From Thermosipho atlanticus DSM 15807 (GTDB taxonomy: Bacteria > Thermotogota > Thermotogae > Thermotogales > Fervidobacteriaceae): a stretch of DNA of 64,000 bases. Position numbers and translations under genes: made by a program. Every line of letters starts with the position of its first letter. Position 1 is the first letter of the stretch. Location: contig NZ_FQXN01000002.1 of NCBI RefSeq assembly GCF_900129985.1, forward strand, positions 124,001 through 188,000, in the 5' to 3' direction. Shown here piece by piece: positions 58,600 through 60,259 of this stretch. Under the pieces are notes generated by a model. It saw only the letters and a list, made by a program, of their open reading frames with translations, did no database searches and was not told where the DNA came from.

Positions 58600-58629
58600 A
58601 AAACTTCAATCATTGCTGAGGTGTTAAAT

Positions 58630-59625
58630 TTGAGAATAACTAAGATAAATGAAAAAAATTATAAAGAATGTGTAACCTTAATTTATCGTGAAAAAAAGGA
58701 GTATTTCGATTTTCTCTTTAAAAATCCGATTAAAATAATTGAAAAAGCTGTTTCCAGATCAATTCCACCGTTTTTACCTGAAAATTCCATAGTTTTTGAG
58801 GATAATAAAGGGAATGTATTAGGAGTTCTTTTATTTGCTCCTAAAAGTGCTTTTAGACATGGTTACGAAAAATGGTTTAAAGTGTTGGGTTTTAAGGTCT
58901 TTGGTACAGGGTTGAAATTATCTTCAATTATAGGGCAAATTCTAATCAATTTTACTGTTGATGATGTTTATATGATTTCAGTTTCAGGAAAATCATTGGA
59001 TGTAGAGTATGAATTGCTATATCATTTTATAACCTCCCATGAATTCTCTCGAATTATAGCAGATGTACCTAAATCGATCTTGGAAAAATATAGAATTTTT
59101 GGGTTTGTAGAAAGTCAAGTTTTTAACGATAGAATAGTAAGAATGCACAAAAAGATGAGTTATAAAACTGCAAGTGGTATTGGCTGGGATACTCATCCCC
59201 TTGTTAAGGACAGAAAACTAGTCTTAGGTGGAATTGAAATTCCATATGACTTTGGTTTAAAAGGGCATTCAGATGCTGATGTTTTAGTTCATAGTATTAT
59301 AGATTCGTTAATTGGTGTCTCACTTAAGATGGATATTGGTAAAGTTTTTCCTGAGGATAAAGTTCCAGAAGGTATGAGTAGTATGAAAATGCTTGAAGAA
59401 GTGTTAAGAATGATAAAATCAAAGGGTTATTTTCCAACAAGTATAGATTGTGTAATAATTTCAAAGTACAAACTTGGGCAATTTAGAGAAGATATTGCAA
59501 ACAATCTTTCAGATACATTAAGTTGTCCCGTAAGCTTGAAATTTAAGACTGGAAATGAAGTTTACCCCGAATCTAAAGGGTTAGGTATAACTTCCATTTG
59601 TGTTAGCAATTTAATAGTAATTTAG
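58630..59625 (+). CDS. ispF: GNAT-like domain fused to IspF (MEP pathway)
   Basis: The last about 155 residues are IspF, 2-C-methyl-D-erythritol 2,4-cyclodiphosphate synthase. They show GWDTHPLVKDRKLVLGGIEI with the metal DxH (about 183-203), GHSDADVLVHSIIDSLIG and DIGKVFPED. The first about 175 residues resemble a GNAT acetyltransferase: LRITKINEKNYKECVTLIY at the start, FEDNKGNVLGVLLFAP in the middle and KYRIFGFVESQVFNDRIVRM late. IspF is normally a stand-alone 155-160-residue protein. The junction is in one frame with no internal Shine-Dalgarno before MSYKTASGIGWD. TTG 58630 follows GAGGTG; GTG 58621 lies inside that site. Confidence 0.85.
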   Translation: MRITKINEKNYKECVTLIYREKKEYFDFLFKNPIKIIEKAVSRSIPPFLPENSIVFEDNKGNVLGVLLFAPKSAFRHGYEKWFKVLGFKVFGTGLKLSSIIGQILINFTVDDVYMISVSGKSLDVEYELLYHFITSHEFSRIIADVPKSILEKYRIFGFVESQVFNDRIVRMHKKMSYKTASGIGWDTHPLVKDRKLVLGGIEIPYDFGLKGHSDADVLVHSIIDSLIGVSLKMDIGKVFPEDKVPEGMSSMKMLEEVLRMIKSKGYFPTSIDCVIISKYKLGQFREDIANNLSDTLSCPVSLKFKTGNEVYPESKGLGITSICVSNLIVI

Positions 59626-59641: not shown

Positions 59642-60259
59642 GTGAAAAAAGTATTAGTTGGTTTGTTATTGATATTATCTTTAATTTCCTTTTCAGAAAT
59701 ATATTCAATTAAAATTGACGATACTCCGTTAGGGACAGCAGTTTTAAGAGAAATTACTGATGAAGTTTATCAAGTAGTTACTACTATAGATTATGGAGTA
59801 TTTTATACAATTGAATCAACTACCACATATGACGGACCATATTTTAAAGATTATATTGCAACATTCAGTGTTGATGGGACAACTACTGGGAGAATTATAG
59901 GAAGTTATGACGGGGAAGTTGCGAATTTTACTTTTGAATCTCAAGTTAGTTCAAATACAATTTCTTTGAACAAGCAGAATTTAGTTATTTTAGATAACAA
60001 TTTCATGCTTTCACATTTTTTAAAGATTATTGAATATCCTTCCCCTATTTTTGAAATAGTAATACCTCAGCTTTTATTTAATCCTTCAAAAACGGAATAT
60101 GCTGTTGGCGAAGCGATTTTAAATAAAAAAGGGGATACTTTTGTGATTTCATTTGAAAATGAAAAAATACTTATTACTGTAAAAGATAATAAAATTTACA
60201 AAATCGAATATCCCGATTCTTCAATAACTGTGGAGCTGGTTGAAAATGAAGACTTCTGA
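59642..60259 (+). CDS. Secreted protein of unknown function
   Basis: The 205-residue precursor has a signal peptide (MKKVLVGLLLILSLISFS) without a lipobox Cys. The mature part is beta-rich with many Thr, Tyr and Asp residues and no Cys (YDGPYFKDYIATFSVDG is typical). It may be a DUF3108-like or lipocalin-like secreted protein, but no family is certain. GTG 59642 follows GAGGTGGTAAT. It overlaps rsmA by 14 nt. Confidence 0.7.
   Translation: MKKVLVGLLLILSLISFSEIYSIKIDDTPLGTAVLREITDEVYQVVTTIDYGVFYTIESTTTYDGPYFKDYIATFSVDGTTTGRIIGSYDGEVANFTFESQVSSNTISLNKQNLVILDNNFMLSHFLKIIEYPSPIFEIVIPQLLFNPSKTEYAVGEAILNKKGDTFVISFENEKILITVKDNKIYKIEYPDSSITVELVENEDF

Follow-up and report, generated by a model that had tools for sequence, protein, structure and literature searches.

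IspF (MEcPP synthase, YgbB; PF02542, TIGR00151) is taken, in a survey of the MEP pathway, to occur either as a stand-alone enzyme or as part of the bifunctional protein IspDF (PMC10663253). IspDF fusions are also mentioned in the structure paper on the IspF of Bacillus subtilis, in which complexes of IspD, IspE and IspF are called controversial (PMC5821942). When the open-access literature was searched for IspF together with GNAT, Thermosipho or Fervidobacterium, no description of a fusion of IspF with a GNAT domain came up, and in the open-access literature searched no regulatory domain on IspF is described. The locus considered here lies in a stretch of 64,000 nucleotides from Thermosipho atlanticus DSM 15807, which is called the window throughout. 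It encodes an IspF that is preceded by a GNAT-derived domain, a partner in which this known enzyme differs from the fusions described so far and for which a non-catalytic role is proposed below. The features of the locus are collected in Table 1.

Table 1. Features of the fusion gene and of the extended IspF genes of a second family. Coordinates are those of the window unless a locus is named.
Feature	Residues	Coordinates	Strand	Basis or remark
Fusion gene, IspF with N-terminal domain	331 aa	58630-59625	+	TTG start at 58630, stop 59625, frame unbroken
Shine-Dalgarno sequence GAGGTG of the fusion gene		58618..58623	+	sequence; 6 nt 5' of TTG 58630
N-terminal domain, putative pseudo-GNAT	1-175	58630..59154	+	hhalign, AF2, Foldseek
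Helical insert between GNAT strands 3 and 4	73-110	58846..58959	+	alignment column identity, AF2
Expected site of the acetyl-CoA pyrophosphate loop	117-130	58978..59019	+	reads SVSGKSLDVEYELL; motif absent
Junction joining the last strand of the GNAT part to the first of IspF	176-178	59155..59163	+	AF2 strands 169-175 and 179-193
IspF (YgbB) catalytic domain	182-326	59173..59607	+	Pfam, structural matches, alignment
KFKTGN at the phosphate-side motif position of IspF		59539-59556	+	sequence
IspF with N-terminal extension, G100		L136:1231-2022		
IspF with N-terminal extension, G101		L133:1439-2290	complement	

The fusion gene and its IspF domain

The interval assigned to the gene in the preliminary description is correct, and the frame is open throughout. 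Both the alignment of relatives and the Shine-Dalgarno sequence favour the TTG start over the GTG at 58621 that is obtained mechanically; of the 20 relatives, 19 have a comparable Shine-Dalgarno match ahead of the N-terminal start, which in three of them is weak (four bases). Because the GNAT-IspF fusion is intact in all 20 genomes of the window's family and both halves are under purifying selection, it cannot be put down to chance or to a sequencing error. A split gene or a separate IspF, either of which would have spoken against the fusion, was looked for in the close relatives and none was found, all 20 being fused. An apparent internal stop in the gene of one genome (G080) was rejected, as it sits upstream of the start.

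The YgbB domain is recognized at 136.8 bits against a Pfam cut-off of 26.7 (E 1e-39), the NCBIfam IspF score of 114.7 lies slightly below its cut-off of 116.45, and solved IspF structures superpose on this part of the protein at 1.2-2.2 A. The expected zinc ligands D187, H189 and H221, whose roles we take to be those of Asp8, His10 and His42 of the Escherichia coli enzyme, are all present and are invariant across the family alignment. On the phosphate side the TTxE motif is absent and K[ST]GN is found instead; the glutamate of TTxE (Glu135 in E. coli) is presumably a metal ligand, and the lysine could replace the metal there, irrespective of the fusion. Most stand-alone IspF proteins of Thermotogota show the same replacement, which is thus independent of the fusion. 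Families f1, f2, f3, f9, f10 and f11 have K[ST]GN or something close to it (KTAN, KSAN) in their IspF, and TTxE is kept in f7 and f8. The fused protein is the sole IspF of the genome, and the same holds in each of the 20 family genomes. The genome has separate genes for Dxr, IspD (G000:C3:67263-67922) and IspE, and in one related genome uppS is the second gene after the fusion gene, so that IspF is expected to be both needed and active. Judged by its sequence this part of the protein looks catalytically complete, and we infer that it functions as an IspF.

The N-terminal domain as a GNAT by descent and fold

AF2 models the approximately 175 residues that precede IspF as a single compact domain (pLDDT 88.8, pTM 0.87). 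Searches of this domain against GNAT families, the check proposed in the preliminary description, gave different answers depending on the method: they were negative with Pfam and NCBIfam models, and positive in profile-profile and structure comparison. No Pfam or NCBIfam GNAT model exceeded its cut-off for any fusion member tested. The best sub-threshold match was Acetyltransf_7 (E 0.015, in two of 18 members), and all others were dismissed as chance. Likewise, hmmsearch of PDB sequences with the profile of the domain returned nothing meaningful. When whole genomes were searched, the same profile weakly found genuine GNAT genes, including one of the window's own genome (E 0.008) that matches a Pfam GNAT model at E 1.5e-13. 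Compared by hhalign with an alignment of 26 real GNATs from Thermotogota, the domain gave a colinear match of 156 columns (probability 97.6%, E 3e-12), which begins at the first helix and ends at the GF that follows strand 5. The E value was still 9e-12 after the three nearest GNATs had been left out, and reversed and 100 column-shuffled controls gave at most 3.6% (78.6 for the match against 21.8 for the best control).

Structure comparison gave the same result. The top PDB matches in Foldseek were all GNATs, including 1u6m and 4m85 (TM 0.70-0.72), puromycin and dopamine N-acetyltransferases and others, and the inactive HAT-like domain of O-GlcNAcase was also in the list. The order of secondary-structure elements in the model (b1-a1-a2-b2-b3-b4-a3-b5-a4-b6-b7) fits that of a GNAT. 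By profile-profile comparison and by the model, the N-terminal domain is a GNAT by descent and fold, and the earlier claim of a GNAT-like domain fused to IspF is borne out.

Loss of the cofactor loop

The loop Q/R-x-x-G-x-G/A that should follow strand 4 is absent in all 19 aligned members, and in the 20th (L007) as judged by reading. It is retained, as RGQGLG and similar sequences, in the related stand-alone GNATs; within the window's own genome, the stand-alone GNAT reads SVDKRFRGQGLGTKLL at the position of the cofactor loop, whereas the fusion protein reads SVSGKSLDVEYELL. In 11 of the 19 aligned members three residues are deleted here, and the members of genera g2 and g3 are three residues shorter at this place than the window protein. 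The acetyltransferase-like pattern that had been noticed earlier therefore holds for fold and descent; it is not to be read as an acetyltransferase, since the cofactor loop is gone in every member. With the loss of the acetyl-CoA pyrophosphate loop the domain probably no longer acetylates, and it is most likely a pseudo-GNAT. A few GNATs with atypical loops may stay active, and going by the sequence itself some catalysis may persist.

Selection and the helical insert

Purifying selection on the domain is strong, with dN/dS values of about 0.05-0.12 in most close pairs with measurable dS, similar to those of IspF. Its most conserved part is the helical insert between strands 3 and 4, where the mean column identity (0.73, against 0.72 for IspF) is higher than in the rest of the domain. 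Within the insert F75, R76, Y79, W82, G87, G94 and K96 are invariant, and so is K72 directly before it. AF2 confidence is lowest in the insert (63-81); in a monomer model this is suggestive of a surface that depends on a partner, and it may merely reflect the depth of the alignment, which is shallow (18-19 sequences).

Distribution and gene neighbourhood

Among 103 Thermotogota genomes surveyed, the domain was found in 20, which are exactly those of the window's family (five genera, apparently Fervidobacteriaceae, the family of Thermotogales to which NCBI assigns Thermosipho), and in all 20 it is fused to the single IspF of the genome. The question whether the fusion is kept across Thermotogales is thus answered in the negative: it is limited to one family of the order, and the other families, f2 and f3, have a stand-alone IspF in different gene neighbourhoods. 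Among the best 80 IspF loci in GTDB genomes, one (L052) is the fusion. Other long extensions in that set were rejected: they were identified as IspD, either from its motif or on reading (L112, L130), or seemed to be meaningless translated flank (L121, L125). Long frames around IspF in G092, G047-G052 and other genomes were also rejected as fusions, the examples that were read being antisense frames or stop readthrough from a neighbouring gene.

Upstream of the fusion gene, glgC is present in all 20 genomes, either adjoining or separated by one gene of about 1 kb (L008, L011). That gene (L011:466-1452, L008:499-1488) encodes a conserved protein of about 328 residues with a C-terminal membrane helix, which occupies this position in other genera and is absent from it in the window. 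Downstream, frr and uppS follow the fusion gene in L011, and in Thermosipho-like genomes a small exported protein is followed by ksgA. In the window the small protein (59642-60259, forward strand) carries an N-terminal signal-like stretch; it is conserved at this position in genera g1, g4 and g5 (45-69% identity) and was not found beside the fusion gene in g2 and g3. The window's genome also carries a stand-alone GNAT (G000:C2:278666-279244; L051, L142) that belongs to the subfamily of the fused domain and whose RGQGLG loop is intact. At the threshold set, its occurrence in the family is patchy, G078 and G083 alone having close copies.

Two genomes that belong to a different family of the class (G100 and G101) encode IspF proteins with 115-125 additional N-terminal residues, and on the tree the IspF domains of these proteins cluster with those of the window's family, the support being moderate (85/88). 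One of the extensions gave no match to the profile of the fused domain, and p was 0.08 when the tested extension was compared with real GNATs in the GNAT register. One of the two resembles the latter half of a GNAT that lacks the cofactor loop, in a match that is not significant. The extensions may share their origin with the fused domain, may have arisen separately or may be unrelated to it.

Proposed function and alternative explanations

Taken as a whole, the following explanation seems to us rather probable. The gene would encode one protein of 331 residues in which a GNAT-descended, loop-less domain is closely attached to IspF and is retained for assembly, docking or sensing. This domain would descend from a stand-alone acetyltransferase of the kind still found in Thermotogota; after the fusion, the acetyl-CoA pyrophosphate loop would have been lost, and acetylation probably with it. 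A new surface, centred on the basic and aromatic helical insert, would serve the only IspF of the cell, which might be the reason for the retention of the domain. By analogy with the homotrimers of IspF, three copies are predicted per trimer. These would most likely form contacts between subunits or between trimers, or dock a partner or a ligand, and the effect of the pseudo-GNAT on IspF would be a non-catalytic one.

The view that the fusion is merely an open frame, from which two separate proteins arise by an internal start or by processing, has in its favour two ATG codons that the window gene contains at the junction, at residues -11 and -7 relative to the IspF motif. It is nevertheless hardly credible. 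No Shine-Dalgarno sequence precedes these codons, in line with what the preliminary description had noted for the IspF half. Nor do the 20 relatives share a conserved internal start, and three of them (L011, L014 and L020) have no start codon in the linker at all. In the AF2 model, moreover, only about three residues separate the two strands at the junction, so that the domain passes almost directly into the first strand of IspF. Very improbable, too, is a merely superficial likeness to GNATs, with the N-terminal part being an unrelated alpha/beta domain. The sub-threshold scores of all Pfam and NCBIfam GNAT models, of which Acetyltransf_7 comes closest, are what such a domain would give; the profile-profile match with its clean controls and the PDB matches, all of them GNATs with TM up to 0.72, have already largely refuted this reading.

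Two further explanations accept the GNAT descent. In one of them the protein is a bifunctional enzyme: its N-terminal domain would be active as an acyl-CoA-dependent acetyltransferase whose cofactor loop is unusual, and the substrate would be a protein or an isoprenoid-related compound. Fold, descent and strong purifying selection agree with this; however, none of the 20 members has the pyrophosphate-binding loop by which motif A is defined, 11 of the 19 aligned have a three-residue deletion at that place, conservation is found in the helical insert and not at the cofactor site, and to our knowledge no MEP step uses an acyl donor. An active acetyltransferase is therefore improbable. A ligand sensor, in which the old CoA or substrate pocket would bind a metabolite (a nucleotide, an acyl-CoA or an isoprenoid diphosphate from further down the pathway) and so regulate IspF allosterically, is unlikely, and this reading overlaps with the explanation preferred here. 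The invariant K72, R76 and K96 and the nearly invariant K89, in or beside the insert, could bind phosphate, and regulation would explain why the domain has been retained on an essential enzyme.

A wider proposal, which is put forward tentatively, is that throughout the family the pseudo-acetyltransferase has become fixed as a subunit or a sensor at the essential IspF step, that the family of G100 and G101 has the fusion as well, or a descendant of it that is shrinking, and that it would hence represent an undescribed regulatory or assembly domain of the MEP pathway.

Comparison with known systems

A pseudo-GNAT fusion that is family-wide and under selection would provide a natural handle on the control of IspF or on its co-assembly with other MEP enzymes, a question that is controversial (PMC5821942). 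It would also be a clean example of an enzyme fold turned into a non-catalytic domain while catalytic relatives persist in some of the same genomes.

The window protein shares its catalytic domain and zinc-ligand residues with known IspF proteins (e.g. B. subtilis, 5iwx); these are stand-alone or fused to IspD, whereas here a GNAT-derived domain stands in front. In IspDF (Campylobacter jejuni 1w55, Helicobacter pylori 8xhu) an N-terminal domain is likewise joined to IspF by a short linker and decorates the IspF core. The partner there is IspD, a cytidylyltransferase of the same pathway, whereas the N-terminal domain of the window protein is unrelated to IspD, gave no IspD match in Pfam or NCBIfam, and occurs in a genome in which the IspD gene is separate. 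The stand-alone GNATs of Thermotogota (L142-L168; about 190-210 residues, weakly RimI-like) have the same fold order as the fused domain and share with it the long helical insert that follows strand 3 and precedes strand 4, but they are encoded by separate genes and, unlike the fusion, still have both the RGxGxG cofactor loop and the motif N..A..LY..GF. Although it is C-terminal, is carried by a glycosidase and has no close sequence relation to the domain described here, the pseudo-HAT domain of O-GlcNAcase (3zj0, 6r45) is also a GNAT fold on an unrelated enzyme, and it too is thought to be without acetyltransferase activity.
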